In this document: one piece after another, positions 19,383 through 35,825 of the stretch | Numbering within the stretch: position 1 is the first letter of the stretch | Layout: each line of letters starts with the position of its first letter | Assembly: GCF_030652515.1 (NCBI RefSeq) | Contig: NZ_JAUSAR010000032.1 | Location: forward strand, 1-64,000 | Origin: Aquabacterium sp. | GTDB lineage: Bacteria; Pseudomonadota; Gammaproteobacteria; Burkholderiales; Burkholderiaceae_C | Length of the DNA stretch: 64,000 nucleotides | Direction: 5' to 3' | Position numbers and translations under genes: made by a program | The notes under the pieces: model-generated | The model's input: the letters and a program-made list of their open reading frames with translations, nothing else | Told to the model about the DNA's origin: nothing | The model's database searches: none

Positions 19383-21464
19383 ATGAAAACGCAATCGCAG
19401 AATGATTTGATGGGTAAGTTTGGTTTGGTGGCATGGGCCTGTGTGGCAGCCATCGGGCTGGCAGGTTGCGGCGGCGGTGGCGGCGGCTCGACAGCAGCAC
19501 CCGGCAGCACCACCGGTGGCTCGGCCACCACCGAATCGGTGGTCACATCGGGTGGGTCCACATCCAACAACAACACCAGCTCGGGAGGCAGCGGAAGCGG
19601 CACTTCAGGCACCACACAGCCCACCGCTCCAGCACCACCAGTGGTGGTGACCGACGCCGTTGACATGGCAGCGTCCTGGGTGCCCACGGCCTCCAACATC
19701 ATTGCCACCTTTGACACCGACACGGACAAAGCTGCCAATTGGACCTTCTACCCCGGCTCAGAGTTCCCTGGCGCCAACGGTGGGCTCGCAGAAATCACCA
19801 ATGGCGTGGCAGGCACCAAAGCAGTCTCCTTGCAATATGACCTGGGTTGCGGCACCCCCACCTACGGGTTGGCCAATACCTCCTGCGGCCGCTATGTCTC
19901 GGCCAGCTTGCGCCTGCCCCAGACGATCGAGGTGGGCGTGAACGACCAGCCCACCATCTCCCTGGACCTGCGCAATCTGCAAGGCGTGGCCCGGCCCAGT
20001 CTTCGCGTGGTTGATGGCAGTGGCCAGACATTGCAGTTCCCCATCCCGCTGAGAACCCTTGAACAAGCCAGCGGCACCGCATGGCGCTCGGTGCAGATCC
20101 CAGTGGGCCGCAGTTCGGTTTTCTGGGAGGGCACGAACGACGGCATTTTCCGCGGCCCCCTGAAGTCAGTCTCGGTGCTGTCGGGTGACCTGCCCATGTC
20201 CTACCCCGCGGGCTCGCTGGACATCGACAACGTCGCCTTGCTCAAATCGCCTGACAACACGTTTGAACTCAAATCCAACGTGCCCCTGTCCAACATCGCC
20301 TTTCCGCCCACCTATGTCGGCCGTGTCGGGGTCACCATCCAGAGCTACACCCTGGCCGCACTGGACAAGCTCAAAGCGGCCGGCATCACCATGGTGCGCA
20401 AGGATTTGCACTGGGATGGCGTGGAAAAGGATGGCGTTTTCTCTTTCGCCCGCTACGACGCCCTGACCGCTGCGCTGACGCAACGCGACATGTCGGTCTT
20501 GTGGATCCTGAACTATGGCCATCCCGACCACGGCGGCGCGGCCCCCCTGACCAGCGCCGACCAGAGCGCCTTCGCCGAGTTTGCCCGCCGGGCGGCGCTG
20601 CAGTACAAAAACCAGAAGGTGGTGGGCTACGAAATCTGGAACGAGCCCAACAAGGAAAAACGCTGGCCTTCGCCTGATCCGGTGGCTTTTGCCAACCTGC
20701 TGGACAAGGCCGCCCGGGCCATCCACCTGGCAGTCCCTACCGCCAAGGTCGCGTCAGGTGGCATTGCTGACCTGGACACCACCTACCTGCTGAGGATGCT
20801 CAACACCGGCAAGCTCACTGGTGTTGACGCCGTCGGCGTTCACCCCTACCGCAAGACGGCGCCTGAAACCTATGCCGCCGACGCCACCCCCCTGCAGAAC
20901 CTGGTCAACAGCAAAGGCACGGCCGCCGTGCTGTGGGACACCGAATGGGGCTACTCCTCGTTCGAAGACATTGACGCCGCGGTTTATGGCAATGGCCGGG
21001 ATCCACGCGCCCTGCGTCGGCAAGGCATCCTGGTGCTGCGCAAGGTGCTGACTCAAATTGCCCTGAACAGCCCGGTCAGCGTTCTGTACAACCTGCTCGA
21101 TGATGGCAGCAGCCCCACCGACCGCGAACACAACTTTGGCCTGCTGACCGCCTCGGGCGCCGACAAACCAGCCATGGTGGGCCTGCGCAACCTGTACGGT
21201 GCTCAAAATGGGCGGGTGCTCAAGGGCTTCATCCCCGACGTGCCCCCAGGCCTGCACGTGCTGCGCTGGGATGGTGCCTCGGACCGCGCCTTCGCCCTGT
21301 GGTCAGACACGAACGCCAGCAAGATCACGGTGCAATTGCCCGCCACCATCAGAACAGTGACACGTTGGGACGGCACCACCGTTCAACCCACGGTGACCAG
21401 CACTGGCCGCCACGTGGTGATGCGCGAAGCCGATGGCCCGCTGTTCGTGACCATGGCCAAGTGA
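19383..21464 (+). CDS. Lipoprotein clan GH-A glycoside hydrolase (GH39-like), paralogue
   Basis: A 693-residue lipoprotein: the signal peptide ends in the lipobox LAGC (Cys about 29), followed by a Gly/Ser/Thr-rich linker (about 30-90) that probably spans the space from the outer membrane. The rest parallels the 17325-19145 product: an N-terminal sandwich-like region (QYDLGCG, CGRYVSASLRL), then a TIM barrel with acid/base Glu about 421 in EIWNEPN and nucleophile Glu about 521 in WDTEWGYSS. The residue after the lipid Cys is Gly, not Asp, so Lol export to the outer membrane is expected. Two divergent hydrolase genes with different localisation suggest stepwise EPS processing. The substrate is unknown. 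Confidence 0.87.
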   Translation: MKTQSQNDLMGKFGLVAWACVAAIGLAGCGGGGGGSTAAPGSTTGGSATTESVVTSGGSTSNNNTSSGGSGSGTSGTTQPTAPAPPVVVTDAVDMAASWVPTASNIIATFDTDTDKAANWTFYPGSEFPGANGGLAEITNGVAGTKAVSLQYDLGCGTPTYGLANTSCGRYVSASLRLPQTIEVGVNDQPTISLDLRNLQGVARPSLRVVDGSGQTLQFPIPLRTLEQASGTAWRSVQIPVGRSSVFWEGTNDGIFRGPLKSVSVLSGDLPMSYPAGSLDIDNVALLKSPDNTFELKSNVPLSNIAFPPTYVGRVGVTIQSYTLAALDKLKAAGITMVRKDLHWDGVEKDGVFSFARYDALTAALTQRDMSVLWILNYGHPDHGGAAPLTSADQSAFAEFARRAALQYKNQKVVGYEIWNEPNKEKRWPSPDPVAFANLLDKAARAIHLAVPTAKVASGGIADLDTTYLLRMLNTGKLTGVDAVGVHPYRKTAPETYAADATPLQNLVNSKGTAAVLWDTEWGYSSFEDIDAAVYGNGRDPRALRRQGILVLRKVLTQIALNSPVSVLYNLLDDGSSPTDREHNFGLLTASGADKPAMVGLRNLYGAQNGRVLKGFIPDVPPGLHVLRWDGASDRAFALWSDTNASKITVQLPATIRTVTRWDGTTVQPTVTSTGRHVVMREADGPLFVTMAK

Positions 21465-21482
21465 CCATGACCAAATAAAGGC

Positions 21483-22682
21483 TCAATAGCCGAAGTCAGC
21501 CGCCGACTGCCTGACCAGCGCGGCCATCTGGGTTTTGAAGTTCTCGGTTGAGAACAACTCGGCATTGGTGCGGCACGCATCCGCCGAGAACTCACCGGCA
21601 TGGCGTTCAAACTGCTGAACGGCATCCGCGATGGCCTGAGGGGTTTGTTCGTGAAAGAAGATCCCTGTGGGTGCGCTGCCCAGCCCCAGGCCGCGCACGG
21701 TTTCCAGCACCCCACCCCGGCCAAAGGCAATGACCGGCGTGCCACAGGCCTGGGCCTCCACCGGGGTGATGCCAAAGTCTTCTTCAGCGGCGAACACAAA
21801 GGCCTTGGCCGTTTGCATGAGTTGCTTGAGCGTGGCAAAGGGCTGATGCCCCATGACCTCGACATTGGGCCCGGCGATGGCCTTGATGCGCTCCAGCTCA
21901 GGCCCATCGCCCACCACCACCAGCCGCTTGCCGGGCATGAGCGAAAACGCTTCCACGATGGTGGGGATCATCTTGTAGGGCACCAGCCTGGAGGCGGTGA
22001 CGTAGAAGTCTTCCTTGTCGCGGCACAAGGTGAATCCGGCCGTGTCCACCGGCGGATAGATGACCTGGGCTTCACAGCCATACACTTTTTTGATGCGCCG
22101 CTTGATGAAGCGCGAGTTGGCCACCATCACATCGACACCGCAGGCGGTGCGGTGGTCCCACATTCGGATGTAATGCAAAAGCGAGCGGGCCAGGAACGAT
22201 TTGAAGCCCTTCTCCAGCTTGCTTTCGCGCAAATACTGGTGTTGCAAGTCCCAGGCGTAGCGCACGGGCGAATGCACGTAGCTGACATGCAGCTGGTTGC
22301 CCGAGGTGAGCACCCCCTTGGCCACGGCATAGCTGGATGACACGATGAGGTCGTAGCCCGACAGGTCAAGCTGCTCGATGGCCAGGGGCATCAAAGGCAG
22401 GTAGCTGCGGTATTTGGTGCGCGCAAACGGCAACTTCTGGACGAAGCTGGTGGTGACCGGGCGCCCCTTCAGAAAGGCCCGTTGGTCGTCTGGCAGGAAA
22501 TCAACCAGCGTGAACACATCTACATCGGGCCAGATGTTGATCAGTTGCTCCAGCACCTTTTCCGCGCCCGCGTAGACCACCAGCCAGTCGTGCACCACCG
22601 CAACCTTGAGTTTGCGGTTGGCCAAAGGGTTGATCACTGGGGGGTAGGAAGTGGCTTCTCGCACAGCAACTTGAATACTCAT
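21483..22682 (-). CDS. GT4-family glycosyltransferase (mannosyltransferase-like)
   Basis: About 399 residues. Features include KVAVVHDWLVVYAGAEKVLEQL at the N-terminus, HSPVRYAWDLQHQYL in the middle and AAEEDFGITPVEAQACGTPV (E-x7-E donor site) in the C-domain. The HDWL-x-GAEKV and HSP-x-RYAWD patterns are typical of WbaZ-like mannosyltransferases, though specificity is not provable here. The start at 22682 overlaps the upstream glycosyltransferase by four bases (ATGA), indicating coupled translation. It is the last gene of the long minus-strand block and meets the lipoprotein hydrolase gene tail to tail with 18 bases between. Confidence 0.88.
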   Translation of the reverse strand: MSIQVAVREATSYPPVINPLANRKLKVAVVHDWLVVYAGAEKVLEQLINIWPDVDVFTLVDFLPDDQRAFLKGRPVTTSFVQKLPFARTKYRSYLPLMPLAIEQLDLSGYDLIVSSSYAVAKGVLTSGNQLHVSYVHSPVRYAWDLQHQYLRESKLEKGFKSFLARSLLHYIRMWDHRTACGVDVMVANSRFIKRRIKKVYGCEAQVIYPPVDTAGFTLCRDKEDFYVTASRLVPYKMIPTIVEAFSLMPGKRLVVVGDGPELERIKAIAGPNVEVMGHQPFATLKQLMQTAKAFVFAAEEDFGITPVEAQACGTPVIAFGRGGVLETVRGLGLGSAPTGIFFHEQTPQAIADAVQQFERHAGEFSADACRTNAELFSTENFKTQMAALVRQSAADFGY

Positions 22683-23779
22683 GGGTGTGTAGGTACCTGT
22701 TCTGGCAACGCCTGGAGCAATGAACGTGCAGCTCGGGGCCAGGTCCACAGCTGACTGCGTTGTTGGGCTAGCACTTTAAGCTGAACTCGGGCTGGCTCGC
22801 TGCCCATGACCTGGTGGAGTGCATCCAGGAACGAGGATGGGTCAACGGGGTCGAAGTACACCGCCGCCGGGCCGCAAACCTCAGGGATGGAGGCGGCGTT
22901 GGAGGCCACGACCGGGCAGCCCCGGGCCATGGCTTCCAGGGGCGGGATGCCAAATCCCTCGTAGAGCGATGGAAAAACGAAGCAGGCGGCCTGCATGTAC
23001 AGGCTGGCCAGCTCCGCATCAGAGACATAACCCACGTGTTTGACAAAAGGCGGCAAAGCCGCCCCTTTGGCCGCAAACACGGCAGGGTTGGTGCCGCCTG
23101 CCACCACCACGTCGAAACCAGGATCGCCCAGTGGAGCCAGGGCCTGGGCCACGAAGGCAAAGTTCTTGTTGGCCTGGGCGCTGCTGACGGCCAGCACGAA
23201 GGGGCGCTTGAGCAGGTCGGCTTTGGTCAGGATGCCGTCATCAGGCAAGACACGAAGCACGTGCTCGCCGCCCTCGGGCAGCACCGCGATGGATTCGGCC
23301 GCAATGTGAAGGTGGCGGGCCAGCTCTTGCCTGGAGAACTCGGAAACCGTGAGGATGCGCGCGCCACGCCATGCCAGCAGACGGTGCATGCATTTGTAGA
23401 CCAACCGAAAGGCCATGCCGTAAGCCTGTGGCACAGAAAACACGGCCGCGTCGTGGATGACCACGGCCTGGTGGCGTTTGCAGACGGGCCCGGTGTTGCA
23501 CAGGTTGACCAGCAGGCGTCGCCCGGCAAACCAGGGCAACTCGATCTGCTCCCAGGCGTAGCCTTGAAAGCGCCCGACCTCGATGAGCTGGATGTGATTG
23601 AACGAGACCTTGGCCTGGGTGCCCCTGGGAACCGCCAGGAAAAGGGGCCCCAGCTTGATTTCTCCTGACGAAATCAGGCCATCCAGTGCCCTCAGTGTTT
23701 CGATGGCAAAGCGCTCAACCCCCGTGACCGGGCGCTGCAAAAAACGGCCATTGAAAATGATGGACGAACCAAACGCCAA
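22679..23779 (-). CDS. GT4-family glycosyltransferase
   Basis: A 366-residue GT-B enzyme with NGRFLQRPVTGVERFAIE near the N-terminus, VIHDAAVFSVPQAY, ILTVSEFSRQEL, and the donor-site block PSLYEGFGIPPLEAMARGCPV with the E-x7-E pattern. The ITGVERF-like start and the HD motif are common in glycosyltransferases of exopolysaccharide clusters (the CpsF/WbdM-type GT4 group). The only usable start in front of the domain is TTG 23779, because an in-frame TAA lies eight codons upstream. It lies 56 bases downstream of the copper-oxidase-like gene and overlaps the next glycosyltransferase by four bases. Confidence 0.87.
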   Translation of the reverse strand: MAFGSSIIFNGRFLQRPVTGVERFAIETLRALDGLISSGEIKLGPLFLAVPRGTQAKVSFNHIQLIEVGRFQGYAWEQIELPWFAGRRLLVNLCNTGPVCKRHQAVVIHDAAVFSVPQAYGMAFRLVYKCMHRLLAWRGARILTVSEFSRQELARHLHIAAESIAVLPEGGEHVLRVLPDDGILTKADLLKRPFVLAVSSAQANKNFAFVAQALAPLGDPGFDVVVAGGTNPAVFAAKGAALPPFVKHVGYVSDAELASLYMQAACFVFPSLYEGFGIPPLEAMARGCPVVASNAASIPEVCGPAAVYFDPVDPSSFLDALHQVMGSEPARVQLKVLAQQRSQLWTWPRAARSLLQALPEQVPTHP

Positions 23780-23835
23780 CCTGAACCCCTTGTGTGCTTA
23801 GCCGACTAGTGTAAGCACTGACTGGGGTTCTTGGC

Positions 23836-25368
23836 TCAGGCATCCAGTCTGATCACCTTGCCAATCGAGGGGACGCCCTCGGAATCGAACACAAAGAGGT
23901 AGTAATAGCCCGGTGGGGCGGTGTTTCTGCTGTCCGGACTGCTGACCGACAGGATGCCGCCAGGCTTGCTGGCAAAGTTCAAACCGATGAAGCGTTGTTC
24001 ATACACCTGGGCATGGGTGGCTGACCCCAGTTGCACCAGGTGCACCTTGGAGACGGCTGTGGTGCCCTGCACATGGACATCGAAGGCCGTCCCCCACTTC
24101 ACCACCGTTGGCGCCTGGTCGATCTTGGGGCGCTCGGCGAACTGCCCCGAGCCATCGCGCTTGAACAGGTAAGGCGGGTAGTACACCTCCACATCCAGGT
24201 TGTTGCTGGCCTTGGCAGCCCCCGCGCCACCAGCCCCGGTGAGCACTGTGGCGTCTTGCATCAGCAGGGCGACCGAGTGATACAGCCGGTCTTTGCCGGC
24301 CACGGCAGCACTGTTCCAGCGCCCCGTTTTCGGATCCCAGATCTCGGCCAGGCGATTGGCCAGGATGTGCGAGCTGGCATCGTCGTTCTTCAAGCCGCCA
24401 CCACTGACAAACACCTGCCCATCGGCCAGGACGGTGGCCGAAGCGTTGAAGCGGATTGGCGTGTACCAGCCCGTGGTTTTGACCACCGGCTCGGGGCCAT
24501 TGAGATCGATGTCGTTGGCCACCCCCAGCATGCGCATGGACAACACCTTGCCCGGCGCGTACATCAGGCTGGGCAGGTAGGAATGCCCCCGGAACAACTT
24601 GGCCTTGAGTGGCTCGATCTTGCCCTGGCCCTCGATGTCCAGGTAAAAGGTGTTGCCCAAGCGCGAGACGTTGAAGATCTTGCCATTGGGCGCCAGCCAC
24701 AGGCGGGGGTAGTTCCAGTTGGGCTCGCCATAGGCTTCGTTCTTGTCCGCCCCTGGCAAAGTGCGCCAGCCGGTTTTCGGGTTGTAGATCTCGGGGATCG
24801 GGGCGTAGTGGGTGGGATCCAGCTTGCCTCCCACCACCAGCACTTCGCCACTGGCCATGGTGGCCACGGTGGGGTACCAGCGCGGACGCTGCATGGTGCG
24901 CCCGGAAGACTTCAGCACGGTCTTGTTGAAATCAAAGTAGTTGATGTCGGCCGACGACCAGTTGCGCTGACCATTGACGGTGAGATCGCCGCCCACCAGC
25001 AGCACGGCACCATCGGCAGGCACCAACAATTGCCCGCTGCAGAAAATATCGGTGCCCGTCTGGTTGGGCAAGGTCAGGTGGGATTCGGGGCCAAATCCCT
25101 TGGTGGGATCCCAGATGTCGTAAATGGTCTGACCGGTCTGCTGTCCTTTGGCGTCGGTGCCATAGCTCATGACGCGCCCATCCGGCAAAGTGATGACTTG
25201 CAGTGGGATCAAGGGCCAACCCACCACCGGGCCGAACTTGCCGCGCACATGGTACTGGTCGGGGCTGACCGCGCGCTGCCGCAGATGCCACCAGCTGGTG
25301 GCACCCAAGACCGCCACCGCTGTCAGGATCAAAATCCCTTTCAATGCAGTTCGCCAAACACGCGCCAT
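23836..25368 (-). CDS. Galactose/glyoxal oxidase-like copper radical oxidase (AA5-like, DUF1929 C-terminus)
   Basis: A 510-residue protein with an N-terminal membrane anchor or signal (about residues 9-28), a Kelch-type beta-propeller (about 60-390) and a C-terminal DUF1929 domain. Every residue that forms the mononuclear copper/Tyr-Cys radical site of galactose oxidase has a counterpart in the right order: Cys about 110 (TDIFCSG), Tyr about 165 (RWYPT), Tyr-His about 363-364 (RLYHS) and His about 452 (ATHAQVYEQRF). It should oxidise a primary alcohol or aldehyde with O2, giving H2O2. The known relative GlxA of Streptomyces modifies an extracellular glycan made by a neighbouring synthase, so a role on the nascent EPS is plausible. 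The substrate is unknown. Confidence 0.87.
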   Translation of the reverse strand: MARVWRTALKGILILTAVAVLGATSWWHLRQRAVSPDQYHVRGKFGPVVGWPLIPLQVITLPDGRVMSYGTDAKGQQTGQTIYDIWDPTKGFGPESHLTLPNQTGTDIFCSGQLLVPADGAVLLVGGDLTVNGQRNWSSADINYFDFNKTVLKSSGRTMQRPRWYPTVATMASGEVLVVGGKLDPTHYAPIPEIYNPKTGWRTLPGADKNEAYGEPNWNYPRLWLAPNGKIFNVSRLGNTFYLDIEGQGKIEPLKAKLFRGHSYLPSLMYAPGKVLSMRMLGVANDIDLNGPEPVVKTTGWYTPIRFNASATVLADGQVFVSGGGLKNDDASSHILANRLAEIWDPKTGRWNSAAVAGKDRLYHSVALLMQDATVLTGAGGAGAAKASNNLDVEVYYPPYLFKRDGSGQFAERPKIDQAPTVVKWGTAFDVHVQGTTAVSKVHLVQLGSATHAQVYEQRFIGLNFASKPGGILSVSSPDSRNTAPPGYYYLFVFDSEGVPSIGKVIRLDA

Positions 25369-25397
25369 GTTACAAAAACCCCAAAAATTACAACCAA

Positions 25398-25464
25398 GTC
25401 ACAACCATGCCGCATGGTGACTCAGGTTGAGGTGCCGCGTCTTTGAGGTAAGTCACACCGTGAC
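25398..25464. promoter_or_regulatory. Two GTCAC/GTGAC inverted repeats upstream of the copper oxidase gene
   Basis: An imperfect palindrome at 25398-25421 (GTCAC..CCATG-CCG-CATGG-TGAC) and a perfect short one at 25452-25464 (GTCAC-ACC-GTGAC) lie 30 and 84 bases before the ATG of the oxidase-like gene on the minus strand. Shared half-sites at about 50-base spacing suggest operator sites for one dimeric regulator, perhaps CRP-like, but no regulator can be named. Confidence 0.35.
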
Positions 25465-25467
25465 CGT

Positions 25468-25487
25468 AAAACCCCTAATCAAGGGGG
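25468..25487 (-). terminator. Weak terminator-like hairpin after the DprE2-like gene
   Basis: On the minus strand a short stem CCCC/GGGG with a TTGATTA loop is followed by four T. It sits 26 bases after the stop of the SDR gene. The stem is short, so it may only attenuate read-through into the copper oxidase gene. Confidence 0.35.
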
Positions 25488-25512
25488 CAATAAATGCGCG
25501 AATGGGCCGCAT

Positions 25513-26250
25513 TCAAAGTTTCAGCTTGATGAAAACGAACTCGGGGATGGTTTTGATGATCAACATGATGAGTTGCCAAAAGCCCGGGGTGTAGACAATC
25601 CGGCGGCCCTTGTCGATGGCCTGGCTGATGTCTTTGGCCACCTGCTCGGGCTTGGCCCAAAGTGGGCCTTTGGGCAGGTGCGCGGTCATGGGCGTGTCCA
25701 CAAATCCGGGTTTGACGGTGACCACATGGACACCCTTTTTGGCCAGGCGCTGGCGCAGGCCGGAGGTGAAGGCCGACACCATGGCCTTGGCGCTGCCATA
25801 AACGTAGTTGCTTTGGCGGCCCCGATCCCCCGCCACGGATGAGATGACGGCGATGGCGCCACGCCCTTGCTGCTCCAACTGGTTGGCCACCAGGGTCAAC
25901 AGCGCCACGACCGACAAGCCGTTGGTGCCGATTTCGGCCAGGGCGTAGGGCACGTCGTGCTGGGCGCGGTCTTGATCGGTGAGGGTGCCGTGGGCAATCA
26001 GCACGGTGTCGAGCCCACCCAGCGTTTGGGTGGCTTCGGCCAGCAAAGCGGCGTGCTGATCGTGCTGGTTGGCATCGAACACGCGGGTGCCCACTTTGGT
26101 GGCGCCCCGGGTTTGCAGGTCAGCGGCCAGGGATTGCAGTTGCTGCGCGTTGCGGGCCGCCAGGAAAAGGTGGTCGCCCTGTTGGGCCCAGAGTCGGGCG
26201 CAGGCTTCGGCCATGGCCGAGGTGGCCCCAACGATCAGGATCTTTTTCAT
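25513..26250 (-). CDS. SDR oxidoreductase, DprE2-like (decaprenylphosphoryl-2-keto-ribose reductase-like)
   Basis: About 245 residues, classical short-chain dehydrogenase. MKKILIVGATSAMAEACARLWA holds the nucleotide loop, then LIAHGTL, ISSVAGDRGRQSNYVYGSAKAM with the catalytic Ser, Tyr and Lys, and KPGFVDTPM. Start ATG 26250 overlaps the DprE1-like stop by four bases. In mycobacteria the DprE1/DprE2 pair epimerises the ribose of decaprenyl-phosphoryl-ribose at C2 via a keto intermediate. The tight coupling here to a DprE1-like oxidase and a UbiA-type transferase makes this the likely reductase half. By sequence alone it could be another SDR; the context carries the assignment. Confidence 0.8.
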   Translation of the reverse strand: MKKILIVGATSAMAEACARLWAQQGDHLFLAARNAQQLQSLAADLQTRGATKVGTRVFDANQHDQHAALLAEATQTLGGLDTVLIAHGTLTDQDRAQHDVPYALAEIGTNGLSVVALLTLVANQLEQQGRGAIAVISSVAGDRGRQSNYVYGSAKAMVSAFTSGLRQRLAKKGVHVVTVKPGFVDTPMTAHLPKGPLWAKPEQVAKDISQAIDKGRRIVYTPGFWQLIMLIIKTIPEFVFIKLKL

Positions 26251-27587
26251 GTGGACTCCATGACCCGGCGCCAGAAACCTGACGAGAAACGCGGATCGAC
26301 AAATGGGGAAAAGGCTGGCCACTGCGGGTGGCCGGACTTGAAAATCTGCGCGCCCATGCGGCCATCCTTGGCCGGGTACAAGCGGCCACCGGCAGCCTGC
26401 ACGATGCCATCCAACTGGGCGAACAAGCGGTGCAGGCGCTCACCCTGGTTGGGGAAATCAAGTGCCAGCGTGGTGCCCGGCATGGGGAAGGACAGCAGCC
26501 CCCGCGATGGCGGCGCGCCAAATTGCTTGAGCACCGCCAGGAAGGAGCCCATGCCGCTGTCCACGATGGTTTGCAGCAGTTGCCGGGTGGCGGGCAGGGC
26601 TTGCTCGGGCGGGACCACGCATTGGTACTGGTAGAAGCCTTTGGGGCCGTAAATGCGGTTCCACTCCAGCAGGGCATCCAGCGGGTAGAAGAAAGGGCGG
26701 TAGTGCTGCAGGGCTTGCACCCGGTCGCCTTGCTGGCGGTTGAAGTAGGCCAGGTTGAAGGCCTTGAGCGACAAGTTGTTGATCAAGGACAGCGGCGGCG
26801 TGAAGGGCACGCGGCGGCTGCTTGCTTCGACCGGGTTGGGCAGCTTGGCGGCCAGCGCCGGGTTCATGACCGCGGGCGCGTGGTTGGCCCGGTTGAACAG
26901 GCCACGGCCCAGGCGCTTGCCCGCGAAGGCGCAGTCGATCCACGAAACGGTGTATTCGTAATCGGCCTCGGAGGCCTGGCTGAGCTCAAAAAACTCTTCA
27001 AGGCTGCGAAACCGGATGCTTTCGGTTTGCAGGTAGGGATTGGCGATGCGGCGCAGCTGGATTTGCGCCCAGGTGATCATGCCGGTCAGGCCCAGGCCGC
27101 CCACGGTGGCGGCGAACCACTCGGCATGCTGCGTGGGTGAGCAAACGCGGCGGCTGCCATCCGAGCGCAGCAATTCAAACTGGGTGACGTGGTTGCCGAA
27201 GGAGCCCACCAGGTGGTGGTTCTTGCCATGCACATCGTTGGCGATGGCGCCGCCCACGGTGACGAACTGGGTGCCAGGCGTGACCGGCAGGAACCAGCCC
27301 TGCGGCACGATCAGGCGCAGGATCTCTGACAGCAACACGCCGGCTTCGCAGGTGATCAGGCCGGTGGCCTGGTCAAACTCGATGAAGCGGTCCAGCTGGC
27401 GGCCCAGCACCAGGGCGCCGCCCGGGTTCAGGTTGCTGTCGCCGTAGCTGCGGCCATTGCCGTGGGGTAACACGGTGGCCGCACCGTCGGCCGGTAAAGG
27501 AAGGCTGGCATGGCGGCTGGGCATGCCCAGCACCTGCTGATCCGGACGAAAGACCCTGCCCCACGAGGTGACCGCCTGGCTTGCCAT
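26247..27587 (-). CDS. FAD-linked oxidase, DprE1-like (decaprenylphosphoryl-ribose 2-oxidase-like)
   Basis: About 446 residues with the PCMH-type FAD-binding domain at the N-terminus: LPHGNGRSYGDSNLN, then VTPGTQFVTVGGAIANDVHGKNHH, which matches the DprE1 signature, and a substrate domain ending in YPAKDGRMG. The true start is ATG 27587, right after the UbiA stop; a far longer in-frame extension upstream only overlaps the UbiA gene on the same strand in another frame. The DprE1-type enzyme oxidises the C2 hydroxyl of polyprenyl-phospho-ribose. The gene is 11 bases after the UbiA stop and overlaps the DprE2-like gene by four bases. Confidence 0.85.
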   Translation of the reverse strand: MASQAVTSWGRVFRPDQQVLGMPSRHASLPLPADGAATVLPHGNGRSYGDSNLNPGGALVLGRQLDRFIEFDQATGLITCEAGVLLSEILRLIVPQGWFLPVTPGTQFVTVGGAIANDVHGKNHHLVGSFGNHVTQFELLRSDGSRRVCSPTQHAEWFAATVGGLGLTGMITWAQIQLRRIANPYLQTESIRFRSLEEFFELSQASEADYEYTVSWIDCAFAGKRLGRGLFNRANHAPAVMNPALAAKLPNPVEASSRRVPFTPPLSLINNLSLKAFNLAYFNRQQGDRVQALQHYRPFFYPLDALLEWNRIYGPKGFYQYQCVVPPEQALPATRQLLQTIVDSGMGSFLAVLKQFGAPPSRGLLSFPMPGTTLALDFPNQGERLHRLFAQLDGIVQAAGGRLYPAKDGRMGAQIFKSGHPQWPAFSPFVDPRFSSGFWRRVMEST

Positions 27588-27598
27588 GACTTGGCTCG

Positions 27599-29026
27599 TC
27601 AGACGGCCAGCCACAGCACCGCTGCGGCGGCCACGCCGGTGAGCAGGCTGATGCGGTCTTTCAGGGCGAAGACGAGGGGGTCGTCGTGCATGTGGCCCCG
27701 GTGGGTTTGCATCCACACCCGGCTGACCCAATACAGCATGATCGGGCACAGCAGCCACACCATCCTGGGGTGGCTGTACAGCACGGCAATGTCGGGCGAG
27801 TTGACGTACAAGGCCAGCACCAGGATGCTGATGTAGCCAGAAGAGCCGCCCAGGCTTTGCAGCAAGCCCAGGTCTTCCACCTGGTAGCCGCGCCCGCTGG
27901 CCTTGAGCTGCCCTTGCTTGCGCATGGCGTGCAGCTCGGCATAGCGCTTGACGATGGCCAGGCTGAGGAAGATGAAGATGGCAAACAACAGCAGCCAGAA
28001 CGACAGCGGGATGTCGGTGGCCGCCGCGCCTGCCACGATGCGCACGGTGTACAGGCCAGCCAGGGTCAGGACGTCGATCATGACCAGGCGCTTGAGGCCG
28101 AAGGAATAGGCCAGCGTCACCAGGTAATAAGCCCCCAGCACCGCCAGGAACTTGAGGGGCAAGGTCAAGGCCAGCGCCAGCGAGATCAACAACAGCGCTG
28201 GCGCCGCCACCAGCCCAAACAGCAGGCTGAGCGTGCCAGCCGCGAAGGGGCGCTTGCACTTGCGGGGGTGCTGGCGATCAGCCTCCAGGTCGAGCATGTC
28301 GTTGAGCAGGTAGACCGACGAGGCGCACAGGCTGAACGCCGCGAACGCCACCAGGCCGTCGATCAGGGTGGGCATGTCCTGCAAACGATGCGCCGCCGCC
28401 AGGGGCACGAAGATGAGGGCATTTTTGGCCCATTGGTGAATGCGCAAGGCTTTCAACGCCACCCTGACGCCGGACTTGGGCGGCTGGAACACCTCACTGA
28501 CCTGGGTGCAGGCCCGCGCGCTGGCCTCCAATCCGGGTTTGGCATTGACCACGATGGCAGCACGCGCGTGCTGCCAGACCTTCAGATCAACCCGGTGGTT
28601 GCCGCAGTAGTCAAACCCCCGCTCGCCAAAGCGTTGCACCAGTTGTTGGGCCTTGTTGCTGCCCGACAGATTGGTGTGGCCGTCGCTGGCCAGCACGCCA
28701 TCGAAAAAACCGACGTGCTGGGCCACGGCCTGCGCCATGCGCTGGTCTGAGGCCGTGCACAGCCAGATCTGGCGGCCCTGGCTTTTTTGCACTTTGAGCC
28801 AGGCCACGAAAGATTCGGAATATGGCAAGGCGGCGCCATTGATCTGCACTCGCCGGGCGATCTCGGCCTTGAACTTGGCCTTGCCGCCCAGCAACCACAG
28901 CGGCACCAGGAAGAGGTACAGCGGGTTCTGCTTGACGAGCAGCAAGAAGGATTCGAGCAACAAATCGCTGTGGATGAGCGTGCCATCGAGGTCCACGCAC
29001 AGCGGGATTGATTTGGTTTCTGACAT
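27599..29026 (-). CDS. HAD-phosphatase/UbiA prenyltransferase fusion, polyprenyl-phosphate phosphoribosyltransferase-like
   Basis: About 475 residues. Residues 1-185 are a HAD-type phosphatase domain (CVDLDGTLIHSD with the nucleophile Asp, then CTASDQR). Residues about 195-475 are a UbiA membrane domain with eight or nine TM helices and the first Asp-rich motif NDMLDLEADRQHPRKCKRP. The same two activities (transfer of 5-phosphoribose to polyprenyl phosphate by Rv3806c-type UbiA, then dephosphorylation) precede DprE1/DprE2 in mycobacterial arabinose-donor synthesis. The fusion would do both steps in one protein. ATG 29026 begins the HAD domain. Upstream is a multi-pass membrane protein and downstream the DprE1-like gene. 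Confidence 0.85.
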   Translation of the reverse strand: MSETKSIPLCVDLDGTLIHSDLLLESFLLLVKQNPLYLFLVPLWLLGGKAKFKAEIARRVQINGAALPYSESFVAWLKVQKSQGRQIWLCTASDQRMAQAVAQHVGFFDGVLASDGHTNLSGSNKAQQLVQRFGERGFDYCGNHRVDLKVWQHARAAIVVNAKPGLEASARACTQVSEVFQPPKSGVRVALKALRIHQWAKNALIFVPLAAAHRLQDMPTLIDGLVAFAAFSLCASSVYLLNDMLDLEADRQHPRKCKRPFAAGTLSLLFGLVAAPALLLISLALALTLPLKFLAVLGAYYLVTLAYSFGLKRLVMIDVLTLAGLYTVRIVAGAAATDIPLSFWLLLFAIFIFLSLAIVKRYAELHAMRKQGQLKASGRGYQVEDLGLLQSLGGSSGYISILVLALYVNSPDIAVLYSHPRMVWLLCPIMLYWVSRVWMQTHRGHMHDDPLVFALKDRISLLTGVAAAAVLWLAV

Positions 29027-29042
29027 GAAGTCCTTTGACCTT

Positions 29043-30041
29043 TTACCTTTTGTCTCGCAAAGCCCAGACGCAGCCCCAGCCAATGAGCACCGCCAACCAC
29101 AGCGTGAGCAGGCGACACACCAGCGTCAGAAGGATGGCTTCGGGCAGCTGATAGCCGTGCGCATGCAGGAGGCCGGTCATGACCAGCTCAGTGCTGCCCA
29201 AACCACCTGGCAGGAAGGACAGTGCGCCCACGATGATGGCAATCGCATAGATGCCCATGGCCGAGGGCAGCGACAAGGGCGCGGTGGAGATGACATCGCC
29301 CACCAGCTTGAGCCCCACGGCTTCGGCCCCCCAGGCCACCAGGCCCAGGGACAGGCCCATGAACAAGATGCCCGGCTTGAGGAACTGGCTGGCGCTGCCG
29401 AGCATGGTGACCAGGGACTGTGCGGCCTTGAACAGCCTGCTGTCAGCTCGTGGGTGGCTGGCCATGCGCTGTGCCACCCAGGGCCAGGGCGTGAACGCCA
29501 GCATCGCCATCAGGCCGACCACCAGGCCCACGGCCACCCACAGCACTTGTCGGTAAGCCTGCAACTCGGCCAGGACGGCCATGGCCAGCAGGATCATGAC
29601 CAGCAGGTCGAGCAGGCGCTCCACAAAAAATCCGGCCATGAGGCCGGACACCGGGATGCCCAAAGGCTGGTAATAGCGGGCCCGCACCATCTCGCCCAAT
29701 TTACCCGGCGACAGGGTGAAGGCAAAGCCGGACATGAAGGTGAGCGAGACGAAACCCCAGGGCAGCGCATGCCCGAGTCGGTTCAGGTACATCTTCCAGC
29801 GCACCACGCGCAGGGCATAGTTGAGCAAGGACAAGGCCGTGGCCGCCAACACAGCGGGCCAACCCGCGATCAAGGGGGCCAGGCTGATTTTGGACAAATC
29901 ACGGTGGAATCCGACCACGCACCAAACTGCAAACCCGATGATGAGCCCGTAGGTCAGGAGGTTGCGCCACAAGCTGTTGGGTGAGCTTGCGGGAGGGCGT
30001 GGAACGGAGGACAGCATGGCCGGGATTATGCCGAGCGCCAT
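29043..30041 (-). CDS. Lysylphosphatidylglycerol synthase TM-domain family membrane protein
   Basis: About 332 residues with eight or so hydrophobic segments and the family motifs TLSPGKLGEMVRARY and LPGGLGSTE, typical of the LPG_synthase_TM (UPF0104/AglD) family. Members occur beside glycosyltransferases and are suspected to take part in lipid-carrier flipping or sugar transfer, though proof is limited. Here it stands between rmlC and the HAD-UbiA gene, so a role in moving a polyprenyl-linked sugar made by the DprE module is attractive. The start is uncertain (30041 or 30017) because neither has a clear ribosome site. Confidence 0.8.
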   Translation of the reverse strand: MALGIIPAMLSSVPRPPASSPNSLWRNLLTYGLIIGFAVWCVVGFHRDLSKISLAPLIAGWPAVLAATALSLLNYALRVVRWKMYLNRLGHALPWGFVSLTFMSGFAFTLSPGKLGEMVRARYYQPLGIPVSGLMAGFFVERLLDLLVMILLAMAVLAELQAYRQVLWVAVGLVVGLMAMLAFTPWPWVAQRMASHPRADSRLFKAAQSLVTMLGSASQFLKPGILFMGLSLGLVAWGAEAVGLKLVGDVISTAPLSLPSAMGIYAIAIIVGALSFLPGGLGSTELVMTGLLHAHGYQLPEAILLTLVCRLLTLWLAVLIGWGCVWALRDKR

Positions 30042-30047
30042 GCGGCG

Positions 30048-30611
30048 TTAGAAATAATCCGCATCCTTCAAACGTGGGGCCTGCGCATCTTTGGCCGCCA
30101 GATTGGGCTGCAAGCCGCCCAGGGGCCAATCAATGCCGATGTCGGGATCGTTCCAGACAATGGCCCGCTCGCAGTCCTTGGCGTAAACATCAGTGGTTTT
30201 GTACAAGAAATGCGTGTCGTCGGTCAGGGCCACAAAGCCATGGGCAAAGCCCTCCGGCACCCACAACTGACGGTTGTTTTGCGGAGACAGTTCAACACCG
30301 GCCCATTGGCCGAAGGTGGGTGAGCCACGGCGGATGTCCACCGCCACATCGAACGCGGCACCCTGCACCACCCGCACCAGCTTGCCTTGCGCACTGGGTG
30401 GCAGTTGGTAATGCAGGCCCCGCAGCACGCCTTTCTTGCTGCAGGAATGGTTGTCTTGCACGAAGGGCCGGGGCGCAGGCAGGCCCAGTTTGGCCAGCTC
30501 GGCATTGAAGCGGTGCTGGTTGAAGCTTTCCATGAACCAGCCGCGGTCGTCGCCAAACACGGCGGGCTCGATGATGACGACATCGGGAATGCGCGTGGGG
30601 ATCAGCTTCAT
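30048..30611 (-). CDS. rfbC: dTDP-4-dehydrorhamnose 3,5-epimerase
   Basis: A 187-residue cupin-type enzyme that epimerises dTDP-4-keto-6-deoxyglucose at C3 and C5. Signature segments are DDRGWFMESFN, QDNHSCSKKGVLRGLHYQ with the catalytic His, VRVVQGAAFDVAVDIR, and VPEGFAHGFVAL. Length is standard (about 180-190). It is the last of the four rhamnose genes (order B, D, A, C on the minus strand) and starts two bases after rfbA stops. Confidence 0.95.
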   Translation of the reverse strand: MKLIPTRIPDVVIIEPAVFGDDRGWFMESFNQHRFNAELAKLGLPAPRPFVQDNHSCSKKGVLRGLHYQLPPSAQGKLVRVVQGAAFDVAVDIRRGSPTFGQWAGVELSPQNNRQLWVPEGFAHGFVALTDDTHFLYKTTDVYAKDCERAIVWNDPDIGIDWPLGGLQPNLAAKDAQAPRLKDADYF

Positions 30612-30613
30612 GC

Positions 30614-31504
30614 TCAGAACACCTGCTCGTTGATGACCTTGAGCAAGTATTGGCCGTAGCCATTCTTGAGCATGGGCTGGGCCAGCTTGTGAACCTGCTC
30701 GGCCGTGATCCAGCCCGAGCGGAAGGCGATCTCTTCAGGGCAGGCCACTTTCAGGCCCTGGCGCTTTTCAAGGGTGGCGATGAACTGGCTGGCCTCGAGC
30801 AGGCTGTCGTGCGTGCCGGTGTCGAGCCAGGCATAGCCCCGGCCCATGATCTGCACATTGAGCTGACCTTGCTTCAGGTACATGGCGTTGACGTCGGTGA
30901 TCTCCAGCTCGCCGCGCGGACTGGGCTTGATCTCGGCGGCGATGTCGCAGACCTGCTTGTCGTAGAAGTACAGGCCGGTGACGGCGTAGTTGCTCTTGGG
31001 GACCTTGGGCTTTTCTTCGATGCTGAGGGCACGTTTGCTGGCGTCGAAATCGACCACGCCATAGCGTTCAGGATCGTGCACGTGGTAGGCGAAAACGCTG
31101 GCACCATCGGGCTGGCCAGCCGCGTCCATCAACAGGCCTTGCAGGTCGTGGCCGTAGTAGATGTTGTCGCCCAGGACCAGGGCACTGGGGTGGTTGCCGA
31201 CGAAATCGCGGCCCAGGATGAAGGCTTGCGCCAGGCCATCGGGGCTGGGCTGCACGCAATAGCTGAGGTTGACGCCCCACTGGCTGCCATCGCCCAGCAG
31301 CGATTGAAAGCGCGGGGTGTCTTGCGGCGTGCTGATGATGAGGATGTCGCGGATACCGGCCAGCAACAAGGTGCTGAGCGGGTAATAGATCATGGGCTTG
31401 TCGTAGACCGGCAGCAGTTGCTTGCTGATGGCCAGCGTGGCGGGGTGCAGGCGCGTGCCCGAGCCGCCGGCCAGGATGATGCCTTTGCGTGTGGCGAGAG
31501 TCAT
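30614..31504 (-). CDS. rfbA: Glucose-1-phosphate thymidylyltransferase
   Basis: A 296-residue nucleotidyltransferase that forms dTDP-glucose from dTTP and glucose-1-phosphate. It has [31 protein letters not shown] (the N-terminal activating loop), [13 protein letters not shown], and [19 protein letters not shown], all hallmarks of RmlA. Length is normal. It lies nine bases after rfbD and two before rfbC within the rmlBDAC block. Confidence 0.96.
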
Positions 31505-31513
31505 GATGACGAA

Positions 31514-32434
31514 TTACTTCCCTGTGATTTCGGTGAGCATGCGCTGAACGCCTCGCTGCCAATGGGGCAAGGTCAAGCCCAGCGCTTGCTGCAGCTTGGT
31601 GGTGTCCAGGCGCGAATTGAGCGGCCGCTGCGCCGGTGTGGGGTACGAGGCCGTGCCCGTGGATTCGATGGCATCCGGCGCCACCTTGATGGGCTGGCCA
31701 TTGGCGCGTGCCCACTCGATCACGAAGCGGGCGTAGTCGAACCAGCTGGTTTCGCCTTGGGCCACCAGGTGGTAAAGGCCACTCAGTTCTGGGCGGTTGG
31801 CCTGGCGGAAGGCGCGGATGGCGTGCGCGGTGACGTCGGCCACCAGATCAGCCCCGGTGGGTGCGCCGATCTGGTCGTTGATGACCTTGAGCTGATCGCG
31901 CTCGGCCGCCAGGCGCAGCATGGTTTTGGCAAAGTTGCCGCCCCGTGCCGCGTACACCCAACTGGTGCGGAAGATGAAGTGGGCGCAGCCGCTTTGCTGG
32001 ATGAGTTGCTCGCCTTCCAGCTTGGTGCGGCCATAAACGCTCAAGGGCGCGGTCGGGCTCGTCTCGTGGCGGGCGGCCGAGCCGCTGCCATCGAACACGT
32101 AGTCGGTGCTGTAGTGAACCAGCAGTGCGCCCAGTTTGGCCGCCTCAAGGGCGATCAAACCAGGGGCGGTGGCGTTGATGGCTCGGGCCAGCTCAGGCTC
32201 GCTTTCAGCCTTGTCGACCGCCGTGTGGGCGGCCGCATTGACAACGACATCGGGCTTGACGGCCTGCACGATGGCCGCCACTTGCTCAGGGCAGCTGAAA
32301 TCAGCCTTGAGGTGTGGCGCGGCCTGCGGGCCGGGGGAATCGAAATCCAGCGCGGTGACCTGCCCCAGGCACGACAGCGACCGCTGCAACTCCCAGCCAA
32401 CCTGCCCGCCTTTGCCCAGCAAAAGGATTTTCAT
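31514..32434 (-). CDS. rfbD: dTDP-4-dehydrorhamnose reductase
   Basis: About 306 residues; performs the NAD(P)H-dependent reduction giving dTDP-L-rhamnose. It has MKILLLGKGGQVGWELQRSL, NAAAHTAVDKAESE, STDYVFDG and YGRTKLEGE (Tyr-x3-Lys), diagnostic for RmlD. I chose ATG 32434, the start of the Rossmann strand, since earlier starts overlap rfbB. The gene follows rfbB by eight bases. Confidence 0.95.
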   Translation of the reverse strand: MKILLLGKGGQVGWELQRSLSCLGQVTALDFDSPGPQAAPHLKADFSCPEQVAAIVQAVKPDVVVNAAAHTAVDKAESEPELARAINATAPGLIALEAAKLGALLVHYSTDYVFDGSGSAARHETSPTAPLSVYGRTKLEGEQLIQQSGCAHFIFRTSWVYAARGGNFAKTMLRLAAERDQLKVINDQIGAPTGADLVADVTAHAIRAFRQANRPELSGLYHLVAQGETSWFDYARFVIEWARANGQPIKVAPDAIESTGTASYPTPAQRPLNSRLDTTKLQQALGLTLPHWQRGVQRMLTEITGK

Positions 32435-32442
32435 GGTGCTGC

Positions 32443-33525
32443 TCAGGCCACGCGGCTTTGGTAGTTGGTGTTGAGCCAATCACGGTAAGCCCCGGAGCGG
32501 ACAGAGTCAATCCATTCGGTGTTATCCAGGAACCATTGAACGGTTTTATCGATGCCCGAGGTGAAGGTTTCGGCGGGCTGCCAGCCGATCTCACGCTCGA
32601 TCTTGCTCGGATCGATGGCGTAGCGGCGGTCGTGGCCGGGACGGTCAGTGACGTAGGTGATCTGGTCTTCGTATTGGCCCGTGGCCTTGGGGCGCAGGGC
32701 ATCGAGCTTGCGGCAGATGGTGGTGACGACGTCGATGTTCTTGACTTCGTTTTTGCCGCCCACGTTGTAGGTTTCACCCAAGCGGCCTTTTTCAAGGACT
32801 TGGCAGATGGCCTCGCAGTGGTCGCGCACGAACAGCCAATCCCGCACATTCAAACCATCGCCATACACGGGCAATGGCTTGCCATCAAGCGCGTTGAGGA
32901 TCATCAGGGGGATGAGCTTCTCGGGAAAGTGGTAGGGCCCGTAGTTATTGCTGCAATTGGTGGTCAGCGTCGGAAAACCATACGTGTGGTGATAAGCGCG
33001 CACCAGGTGATCGCTGCCCGCCTTGCTGGCCGAATAGGGGCTGTTGGGCGCGTAGGCCGTGGTTTCGTTGAAGGCAGGATCGGTGTCGCTGAGCGAGCCA
33101 TAGACCTCGTCGGTGGACACGTGCAGGAAGCGGAAGGCGGCCTTGTCGGCGGCCGGCAAAGCGCCCCAGTATGCACGGGCCTCCTCGATCAGGCAGAAGG
33201 TGCCCACCATGTTGGTGTGGATGAACTCGCCCGGCCCGTGGATGGAGCGGTCAACATGGCTTTCGGCCGCGAAATGCAGGATGGCGCGGGGCTGGTGCTG
33301 CGCCAACGCGGCGCGCACGGCATCGCGGTCGGCGATGTCGGCCTGGATGAGGGTGGCACGCCCGGCCTCCAGGTGCACTTTGATGGTGAGCGGATTGCCG
33401 GCGTAGGTGAGCTTGTCAAAAACAAGGACGGGCTCTGGGGGCAGGCCCAGCTTGGCCAGACGCTCGAACCAATGGTGGACGAAATTGCCACCGATGAATC
33501 CGGCTCCGCCTGTGATGAAAATCAT
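32443..33525 (-). CDS. rfbB: dTDP-glucose 4,6-dehydratase
   Basis: A 360-residue extended SDR that dehydrates dTDP-glucose to the 4-keto-6-deoxy sugar. [35 protein letters not shown] and [20 protein letters not shown] are the classical RmlB motifs. It is the first gene of the minus-strand block that runs on through rfbDAC, the LPG-TM protein, the arabinose-like module, the copper oxidase and two glycosyltransferases. Its promoter must lie in 33526-33695, shared with the divergent nucleotidyltransferase gene. Confidence 0.96.
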
Positions 33526-33632
33526 GTGAACAACCCAAAGGTTTTTTGGCCAAATTTGTTGGAATTATGCCCAGCGCCCCCTTCACTTGCAGGCCCTACA
33601 TCTGGGGGGTGTCGGCGTTTACATGCACCGCA

Positions 33633-33649
33633 TTGGTCCACTTGTTGCA
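33633..33649 (+). promoter_or_regulatory. Candidate sigma-54 (-24/-12) promoter
   Basis: The stretch TTGGTCCACTTGTTGCA has the invariant GG (33635-33636) and GC (33647-33648) at the exact ten-base spacing and a perfect TTGCA -12 element; the -24 element matches at TTGG and the last C of CAC only. Transcription would begin near 33660, 36 bases before the nucleotidyltransferase ATG. EPS/exosortase loci in related bacteria are often under sigma-54 regulators, but this is a pattern match only. Confidence 0.45.
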
Positions 33650-33695
33650 TGATGCTACCCCATATCAACATGGATCCATTGGCACGAGCAGCAGC

Positions 33696-34799: not shown

Positions 34800-34808
34800 T
34801 TGGCGCCC

Positions 34809-35825
34809 ATGAAAGTGTTGGTCACCGGCGCGGCCGGGTTCATCGGGATGCACACCACCCTGGCCTTGCTGGCCAGGGGCGATGTGGTGGTGGGCATCGA
34901 CAACCTCAACGACTATTACGATCCGCAGCTCAAGCAAGACCGCCTGGCCGAGATCGCTCGGCAGGCGCCAGGGGCACCTTTCCAGTTCCTGCCGCTGGAC
35001 ATCGCCAATCACGGTGACTTGTTCAGCTTGATGGCCTCGGAACGTTTCGACGCCGTGGTGCACCTGGCGGCCCAAGCGGGTGTGCGCTACTCGCTGACGC
35101 ACCCTCAGACTTACGTGCAGTCCAACTTGGTGGGTTTTGTGAACATGCTGGAGGCGTGCAGGCACCACCAGATCAAGCACCTGGTGTACGCCAGCAGTTC
35201 CAGCGTTTATGGCGGCAATGTGAAAATGCCCTTTGTGGAGACCGATTCGGTCGACCACCCGGTCAGCCTGTACGCCGCCACCAAGAAATCCAACGAGCTG
35301 ATGGCCCACAGCTACAGCCACCTCTTTGGCTTGCCCACCACCGGCCTGCGCTTCTTCACGGTGTACGGCCCCTGGGGCCGCCCGGACATGGCACCCATGC
35401 TGTTTGCCAGCGCCATCCTGGCGGGCAAGCCCATCACGGTGTTCAACCACGGGCAAATGCAGCGCGATTTCACCTTCATCGATGACATCGTGGCAGGTGT
35501 ACTGGCCACGCTGGACCGCCCGCCTTCGGCCGAGGATGGGTTTGATCGCCAACACCCCTCGCCCGCCACCTCCTGGGCGCCCTACCGGATCTTCAACATC
35601 GGGCACAGCCAACCGGTGCCGTTGCTGCAGTTCATTGAAACGCTGGAACAGGCCCTGGGCCGCCCGGCCATCAAGGATCTGCAAGCCATGGCGCCCGGCG
35701 ATGTGGTGGCCACTTACGCCGACACGCAGGCCCTGTCGGACTGGACAGGCGTGCACCCCACCACGTCCTTGCCTGACGGCGTGGCCAAATTCGTGAATTG
35801 GTACCTGGCGTATTTCCCCAAATGA
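34809..35825 (+). CDS. NAD-dependent epimerase, UDP-glucuronate 4-epimerase-like
   Basis: About 338 residues. MKVLVTGAAGFIGMHTTLALLARG is the NAD loop, then GIDNLNDYYDPQLKQDRL, HLAAQAGVRYSL, YASSSSVYGG and YAATKKSNELMAHSYSHLFGLPT (Tyr-x3-Lys). The DYYD-x-xLK and AGVRYS segments are characteristic of UDP-glucuronate 4-epimerases, which make UDP-galacturonate. UDP-glucuronate could come from the UDP-glucose dehydrogenase at 39403-40737 (part of the same region). The gene forms a two-gene unit with the nucleotidyltransferase. Other UDP-sugar epimerase activity cannot be fully excluded. Confidence 0.88.
   Translation: MKVLVTGAAGFIGMHTTLALLARGDVVVGIDNLNDYYDPQLKQDRLAEIARQAPGAPFQFLPLDIANHGDLFSLMASERFDAVVHLAAQAGVRYSLTHPQTYVQSNLVGFVNMLEACRHHQIKHLVYASSSSVYGGNVKMPFVETDSVDHPVSLYAATKKSNELMAHSYSHLFGLPTTGLRFFTVYGPWGRPDMAPMLFASAILAGKPITVFNHGQMQRDFTFIDDIVAGVLATLDRPPSAEDGFDRQHPSPATSWAPYRIFNIGHSQPVPLLQFIETLEQALGRPAIKDLQAMAPGDVVATYADTQALSDWTGVHPTTSLPDGVAKFVNWYLAYFPK

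Follow-up and report, generated by a model that had tools for sequence, protein, structure and literature searches.

A cassette of four adjoining genes in an Aquabacterium sp. raises the question of which lipid-linked sugar it would make and by what protein that sugar would reach the periplasm. The cassette lies on the minus strand of the window, meaning here the whole stretch of 64,000 nucleotides that was analyzed (contig NZ_JAUSAR010000032.1, positions 1 to 64,000; estimated contamination of the source assembly, 8.99%), and encodes a HAD phosphatase-UbiA fusion, a DprE1-like oxidase, a DprE2-like reductase, and a membrane protein of family PF03706. We consider it probable that this module as a whole makes and flips polyprenyl-phosphoryl-D-arabinofuranose. 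Its firmest part is the synthesis of the lipid-linked D-arabinofuranose donor, which the sequences make very probable, each enzymatic step being assigned from named homologues. That the PF03706 protein would be the flippase, in place of the small multidrug resistance (SMR) or GtrA proteins of known systems, is favored with less assurance, on the grounds of genetic context and fold. Donor synthesis of this kind is known, and the flippase candidate is likely the new element. The case is built from gene identities, conserved active-site residues, fold, and a conserved genetic coupling, all directly observed.

A preliminary description of this DNA had reported three of the genes in a row, and they are present as it placed them: the DprE2-like short-chain dehydrogenase/reductase (SDR; 25513-26250, 245 aa), the DprE1-like FAD oxidase (26247-27587, 446 aa), and the HAD-UbiA fusion (27599-29026, 475 aa), each with an ATG start. 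The first two overlap by 4 bp, 11 bp separate the DprE1-like gene from HAD-UbiA, and the PF03706 gene (29043-30017, 324 aa) lies directly upstream, 16 bp from the HAD-UbiA start. In the pathway that we propose, the fusion would act as polyprenyl-phosphate phosphoribosyltransferase and 5'-phosphatase, forming polyprenyl-phosphoryl-ribofuranose from phosphoribosyl pyrophosphate (PRPP); the DprE1-like enzyme would oxidize this product at C2, and the DprE2-like enzyme would reduce C2 of the 2-keto intermediate with inversion to yield polyprenyl-phosphoryl-D-arabinofuranose. The PF03706 protein would then flip this lipid across the membrane, and in the periplasm a glycosyltransferase of the GT-C type, either unlinked or unrecognized, would place arabinofuranose on the exopolysaccharide (EPS) or another surface glycan.

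The identity of the first enzyme is well defined, with the fusion scoring 692.4 bits against model NF006088 (cut-off 351). Its UbiA part alone gave 172.9, 151, and 144.9 bits against the decaprenyl-phosphate phosphoribosyltransferase models NF008978, NF008977, and NF008976 (cut-offs 207, 234, and 474, all higher than the scores), and by sequence it matched PDB entry 8j8j at E 8.2e-36. That entry is Rv3806c, the decaprenyl-phosphate phosphoribosyltransferase (PMC11127046). A comparison of the UbiA domain with Rv3806c, suggested in the preliminary description, gave a concordant result: 8j8j was also the best PDB match of the predicted structure of the fusion (mean pLDDT 91.8; Foldseek E 3.5e-11, TMt 0.83, 33% identity), while phosphoserine phosphatases were among the matches of its HAD part. 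In an alignment of the window's protein with 37 of the 74 full-length proteins from named loci (A5), the HAD DxD residues D12 and D14 and the UbiA NDxxDxxxD residues N242, D243, D246, and D250 were invariant in all 38 sequences, as were R361 and E364 in the second UbiA loop. Equivalent residues are named for ORF15 of Citrobacter youngae, and those of the UbiA domain were tested there (PMC11127046). HAD motif IV reads GN instead of GD, and a damaged motif was considered and dismissed, since 13 of 16 aligned relatives also carry GN.

The fusion had been called notable in its own right, which we do not uphold: fusions of this type already have a family model of their own (NF006088), whose cut-off is exceeded in 33 of 300 genomes searched from the window's order, and the same domain order occurs in C. 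youngae O1 ORF15, characterized in 2024. Named relatives include proteins of Leptothrix sp. PB2.3.27 (92% identity) and Aquabacterium olei (76%). Among the loci examined (numbered with L; genomes are numbered with G), the unfused locus L225 holds a PMT_2-type GT-C gene, DprE1, DprE2, separate HAD and UbiA genes, and PF03706; the adjacency of the unfused HAD and UbiA genes is independent evidence that the two act together. In L076 (9536-10993) the HAD and UbiA parts form two open reading frames (ORFs) with an in-frame stop between them, and the rest of the locus looks complete.

The oxidase and reductase are assigned less exactly. The DprE1-like protein scored 378.8 bits against NF053785 (equivalog cut-off 500), with the next-best matches in its own genome at 43.9 bits or less, and the alignment is full-length, placing residues 7-434 of frame 26247-27593 on positions 4-435 of the 449 in the model. 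It also matched PF01565 (69 bits), and a profile of 11 DprE1-like sequences (A2) matched DprE1 in the PDB at E 1.4e-108. The DprE2-like protein gave 206 bits against NF053786 (equivalog cut-off 250), 342.7 bits against the SDR equivalog NF005489 (cut-off 267), and E 2.4e-33 against DprE2 in the PDB (21gq_C). Because both scores lie below the respective equivalog cut-offs, we call the proteins DprE1-like and DprE2-like. Unlike the mycobacterial enzyme, all 11 aligned DprE1-like sequences carry alanine at the position of the cysteine attacked by benzothiazinones, which we take to be Cys387 of M. tuberculosis DprE1. Within the window's genus, 20 of 25 genomes have a DprE1 match with an E value no higher than 1e-60; in two of the five others (G301 and G312), PF03706 stands beside HAD-UbiA and the contig ends in or just after HAD-UbiA.

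Known systems resemble this module in part. In C. youngae, according to PMC11127046, ORF15 (an N-terminal HAD domain plus UbiA) makes polyprenyl-phosphoryl-ribofuranose from PRPP, a small MATE/SMR-like protein (ORF14) is the proposed flippase, and the GT-C enzyme GT136 (ORF12) adds the sugar. The likeness to the O1/O2 systems lies in the HAD-UbiA domain order and the named residues, compared with ORF15 through its description as architecture and residues, in the route from PRPP to polyprenyl-phosphoryl-ribose, and in epimerization of the lipid-linked sugar before export. The window differs in having a DprE1/DprE2-like pair rather than one SDR epimerase, in having a PF03706 protein in place of ORF14, and in having no recognized linked GT-C. 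The mycobacterial decaprenyl-phosphoryl-arabinose pathway shares the chemistry, the UbiA fold of Rv3806c, and relatives of DprE1 and DprE2; however, the window's phosphatase is a fused HAD domain, not Rv3807c, and its flippase candidate belongs to another family than Rv3789. Pilin arabinosylation in Pseudomonas (PSPA7_6245-6251 and TfpW, with homologues in P. syringae) is described in PMC12369383 as a Gram-negative polyprenyl-phosphoryl-phosphoribose synthase (PPPRS) pathway for D-arabinofuranose, linked there to pili, whereas the window's genes stand in an exosortase-type EPS locus. For the flippases proposed in the best-studied systems, the Discussion of PMC11127046 states that direct proof of activity is lacking.

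The candidate for that step in the window is a 324-aa protein of family PF03706 (LPG_synthase_TM, MprF-flippase type), which scored 112 bits against the family model (cut-off 33.4) and 61.9 bits, over cut-off, against TIGR00374. Its predicted structure (pLDDT 86.9) matched the fold of MprF (7duw; E 4.4e-5, probability 1.00, TMq 0.57), and no other match exceeded a probability of 0.23 among the 50 listed. With MprF and the C-terminal domain of AglD it shares the PF03706/COG0392 family and the fold; it differs from them in having no lysyltransferase or GT2 domain and in belonging to a separate subfamily tied to the genes for polyprenyl-phosphoryl-arabinose. Accordingly, the model for bifunctional MprF (NF033480, cut-off 600) gave 43.5 bits, through the transmembrane domain only, and the aminoacyl-transferase C-terminal domain of MprF was not found in the 324 residues. 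Flippase activity for the whole PF03706/COG0392 family was predicted in 2015 (PMC5898192), and the assignment proposed here, if true, would be evidence for the prediction that these proteins flip lipid-linked sugars. Among the matches listed in our literature searches, no paper linked PF03706/COG0392 with this pathway, with the limit that figures S11/S12 of PMC11127046 or Harvey 2011 may name the gene.

The subfamily is coupled to donor genes well beyond one genus. Members adjoin a phosphoribosyltransferase or DprE1 gene in Beta-, Gamma-, and Alphaproteobacteria and in one Acidobacteriota genome; the search for members started from the window's protein and may have passed over more distant ones. 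This recurrence beside donor genes across several bacterial classes makes the protein a concrete and testable flippase candidate. With at most four PF03706 matches per genome across 31 relatives, we estimate the probability of a chance adjacency at well under 1% per locus. A tree grouped 37 cassette members with two more-distant neighbors (support 97/93) and kept 12 paralogues separate; it has long branches and an arbitrary root, and 11 of the 12 paralogues come from the window's own genus. A PF03706 alignment (A4) comprised the window's protein and 17 of the 18 named PF03706 proteins, that of L164 being left out.

A PF03706 profile built from 17 cassette members and one further sequence was run against the 300 genomes from the order; with this composition, the counts show where the subfamily occurs rather than all PF03706 proteins. 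Matches of at least 232 bits were found in 13 genomes, the next two scoring 67.8 and 64.5 bits. The matching gene lay within 100 bp of a UbiA gene of the decaprenyl-phosphoryl-phosphoribose synthase (DPPRS) type in ten of the 13, and within 20 bp of DprE1 in G279 and G248, while in G192 it shares a cluster with HAD-UbiA at a distance of 8.3 kb; 12 of the 13 are thus no more than 100 bp from UbiA or DprE1. Six of the ten UbiA-adjacent genomes, and G279, align with the fusion model over its UbiA portion only, a gene type outside the sampling design of the HAD-UbiA locus collection. Within the genus, the PF03706 gene directly precedes HAD-UbiA in 17 of 19 loci, the exceptions being L069 (a contig end) and L066 (a divergent locus), and rfb genes stand beside the cassette in 14 of the 19. 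HAD-UbiA, DprE1, DprE2, and PF03706 also occur together in L136, L151, L159, and L164 from P. viridiflava and other pseudomonads. In L115 (550-2214; Pseudomonadales), an exosortase-EpsI fusion is encoded upstream of a PF03706/HAD-UbiA/DprE1/DprE2 cassette, and the association of exosortase loci with the cassette therefore extends beyond the window's genus.

A comparison among HAD-UbiA loci asks which membrane protein accompanies which sugar-modifying genes. Loci were collected with HAD-UbiA queries, at most 80 each, and the resulting 121 were reduced to 70 by leaving out 22 rows from the genus, 5 near-copies recognized by eye, and 24 with a flank shorter than 4.5 kb; 49 of the 70 contain DprE1 and 21 do not. 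When the window's DprE2-like protein was compared directly by BLAST, a relative turned up no more than 6 kb away in 47 of the 49 DprE1-positive loci and in none of the 21 DprE1-negative ones. PF03706 genes show the same restriction, with 13 of 49 vs 0 of 21 within 2.5 kb (p = 0.007), identical counts within 6 kb of HAD-UbiA, and 37 of 93 vs 0 of 28 within 2.5 kb when all 121 loci are taken. GtrA follows suit (24 of 49 vs 0 of 21 within 6 kb; 33 vs 0 within 10 kb), and SMR shows the reverse (2 of 49 vs 9 of 21 within 6 kb; 4 vs 10 within 10 kb). The only two DprE1-positive loci of the 49 without a DprE2 relative, L114 and L147, are also the only two with SMR within 6 kb, and another reductase may replace DprE2 in them.

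Among the 49 DprE1-positive loci, those with PF03706 tend to lack GtrA/SMR and vice versa: 4 loci hold both, 9 PF03706 only, 31 GtrA/SMR only, and 5 neither (p = 4e-4, at limits of 10 kb for GtrA and 2.5 kb for SMR). We lean, if only slightly, toward the general proposal that the PF03706 subfamily is the polyprenyl-phosphoryl-D-arabinofuranose flippase in many Proteobacteria, replacing SMR/GtrA, and that the flippase would follow the sugar, with SMR in ribose-type loci and GtrA or PF03706 in arabinose-type loci. One set of neighbors, cluster c4 (27 of 121 loci, among them L066, L072, L077, L103, and L121), places an amine-oxidase-like flavoprotein, an SDR epimerase-like protein, and GtrA near DprE1/DprE2. 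The c4 flavoprotein of L066 is over the cut-off of NF005560, and the cluster often includes a large multi-helix protein, of which those scanned matched no Pfam family except for one major facilitator superfamily transporter. The composition of c4 suggests that the lipid-linked sugar is modified further.

Several observations weigh against the proposed module, touching its flippase, its enzymes, and its transferase in turn. For the flippase, the structural match to MprF has a root mean square deviation of 8.0, and the PF03706 profile matched solved MprF by sequence at only E 0.012. The exclusion from GtrA/SMR is not significant with a limit of 6 kb (4, 9, 22, and 14 loci; p = 0.10), and the p values treat loci as independent, which is overstated given that several Caballeronia/Paraburkholderia loci were kept. 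PF03706 and GtrA or SMR occur together in nine loci (L075, L088, L096, L103, L106, L132, L225, L227, and L228), so that replacement of GtrA/SMR by PF03706 is not strict. These nine loci speak for the alternative that the donor is made as proposed while the PF03706 protein serves as a regulator, a scaffold, or a flippase of another lipid, such as free polyprenyl phosphate, with GtrA/SMR-type proteins elsewhere doing the flipping; literature searches at the level of listed matches also brought up no report of a transport measurement for the subfamily. We nonetheless regard this explanation as unlikely, though the most serious of those considered. The nine non-genus DprE1-positive loci with PF03706 only, as counted above, argue against it, as does the predicted MprF flippase-domain fold. 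The four DprE1-positive loci with both gene types carry the extra amine-oxidase-like gene of c4, whose GtrA may serve another sugar. L225 and L227 have an SMR-like gene further on, which in L225 is separated from the cassette by an ArnT-type gene. In the window itself, no ORF of at least 70 aa matched an SMR or GtrA profile at E 1e-3, a search covering the 64 kb and not the rest of the genome.

For the enzymes, the score of the UbiA part taken alone (172.9 vs 207) and the DprE1 and DprE2 scores all fall short of the NCBIfam cut-offs given above. The shortfall of the oxidase and reductase would suit an end sugar other than D-arabinofuranose, such as ribofuranose, xylofuranose, or a modified arabinose, produced by only distant relatives of DprE1 and DprE2, and C. 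youngae O2 offers a precedent, its xylofuranose being formed by one SDR epimerase (PMC11127046). We judge another pentofuranose improbable, as the window has both DprE partners side by side, like the arabinose pathway, and DprE1/E2 homologues are reported by the same source from systems with arabinofuranose-containing glycans. A further argument for arabinose comes from AftB-like GT-C proteins encoded in related cassettes. The L151 cassette (Pseudomonas sp. PH1b) runs GT-C, HAD-UbiA, DprE1, DprE2, PF03706, and a profile of this GT-C with three relatives (A7) matched the AftB structure 9dlf at E 2.9e-17. More weakly, A7 matched proteins of L094 (E 3e-14), L062 (7e-12), and L143 (1e-11); in the genus loci L094 and L062, a 538-aa GT-C gene stands directly upstream of the PF03706 gene in the same cassette. 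Taken singly, the L094 and L143 candidates had no AftB match in the PDB, their likeness resting on the A7 profile, and a 550-aa candidate of L067 gave no meaningful match.

For the transferase, no GT-C was recognized in the 64-kb window by transmembrane count, which gave nine ORFs with at least three predicted helices; those without a family name include 14689-16008 and 45666-46361. A homologue of the L094 GT-C was found twice in 42 genomes of the genus and a joint GT-C profile (A8) had ten matches there, in both cases with none in the window's genome, where two GT-C profiles gave only a chance-level match (E 0.57). In the near relative G314, neither of two GT-C profiles matched in the 100 kb surrounding the cassette, where 12 multi-helix proteins were partly identified, and the sole PMT_2 protein of the window's genome adjoins an ArnC-like GT2; an empty profile search for a GT-C, however, proves little. 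EPS, in which the preliminary description had expected D-arabinofuranose or a related pentose, is about an even prospect as the acceptor. The cassette points to D-arabinofuranose as a probable constituent of the surface glycans of Aquabacterium/Leptothrix-type bacteria, for which the word arabinofuranose was absent among the literature matches listed.

An assembly of unrelated pathways, with UbiA in quinone or haem prenylation, the oxidase acting on aldonolactones or sugar alcohols, and a generic SDR, is hardly credible: UbiA, FAD_binding_4, and adh_short are indeed broad families, but quinone/haem prenyltransferase models gave at most 30.5 bits and the general prenyltransferase model 42.5, vs 692 for NF006088, lactone-oxidase-type models gave at most 33.4 bits vs 379 for NF053785, and two other UbiA genes in the genome (Pfam UbiA, 231.4 and 230.6 bits) are taken to serve the usual roles. 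On these model scores, a UbiA of quinone, haem, or archaeal-lipid synthesis and a lactone oxidase were ruled out. The preliminary description had held that best matches to a quinone prenyltransferase and an aldonolactone oxidase would speak against its proposal; the three proteins match DprE1, DprE2, and Rv3806c-type UbiA in preference to those families, and the proposal stands in this respect. The second UbiA of the genome, on contig C219, was considered and set aside as a member of an ebo-type cluster rather than of this pathway. That cluster (L005, 8262-19170) encodes EboE and EboA over cut-off and an EboC-like protein below it, together with AroB-like, PrnB-like, ScyC-like, and FAD monooxygenase genes.

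The polyprenyl-phosphoryl-arabinofuranose cassette is continued upstream, on the same strand, by four rfb genes with gaps of no more than 30 bp: rfbC (dTDP-4-dehydrorhamnose 3,5-epimerase, 30048-30611; PF00908, 248.5 bits), rfbA (glucose-1-phosphate thymidylyltransferase, 30614-31504, named from the sequence and its position between rfbC and rfbD), rfbD (dTDP-4-dehydrorhamnose reductase, 31514-32434; PF04321, 338 bits), and rfbB (dTDP-glucose 4,6-dehydratase, 32443-33525; TIGR01181, 467.8 bits, over cut-off). The eight genes from DprE2-like to rfbB (25513-33525) form an apparent operon, and a scan of 21400-36000 found no sigma-70-like promoter. Downstream of the cassette, after a 144-bp gap, come a GlxA/galactose-oxidase-like gene and two GT4 glycosyltransferase genes. 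The GlxA-like protein (23836-25368, minus strand; PF09118, 75 bits; NF052501, 128 bits, below the cut-off of 800) is a doubtful member of the module; of the 121 loci, just three (the window, L058, and L093) have a gene of its cluster close to HAD-UbiA, and the protein might oxidize the finished glycan.

The surroundings are, judged by gene content, an exosortase-type EPS locus, with two exosortases, an EpsI-type protein (DUF3485), a Wzx-like protein, and a WecG-type transferase. Both exosortases (2919-3866 and 7277-8233) are over the XrtB cut-off. A Wzy-like protein with nine transmembrane segments (14689-16008) and a second Wzx-like protein, truncated by the contig end, matched no family and were named by eye. 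Near the cassette lie two divergent glycoside-hydrolase-like proteins that appear alike by eye (17325-19151 and 19383-21464), of which the one scanned is Cellulase/GH39-like, and a DUF1800/DUF1501 gene pair (36008-39332) lies 2.5 kb from the rfb genes.

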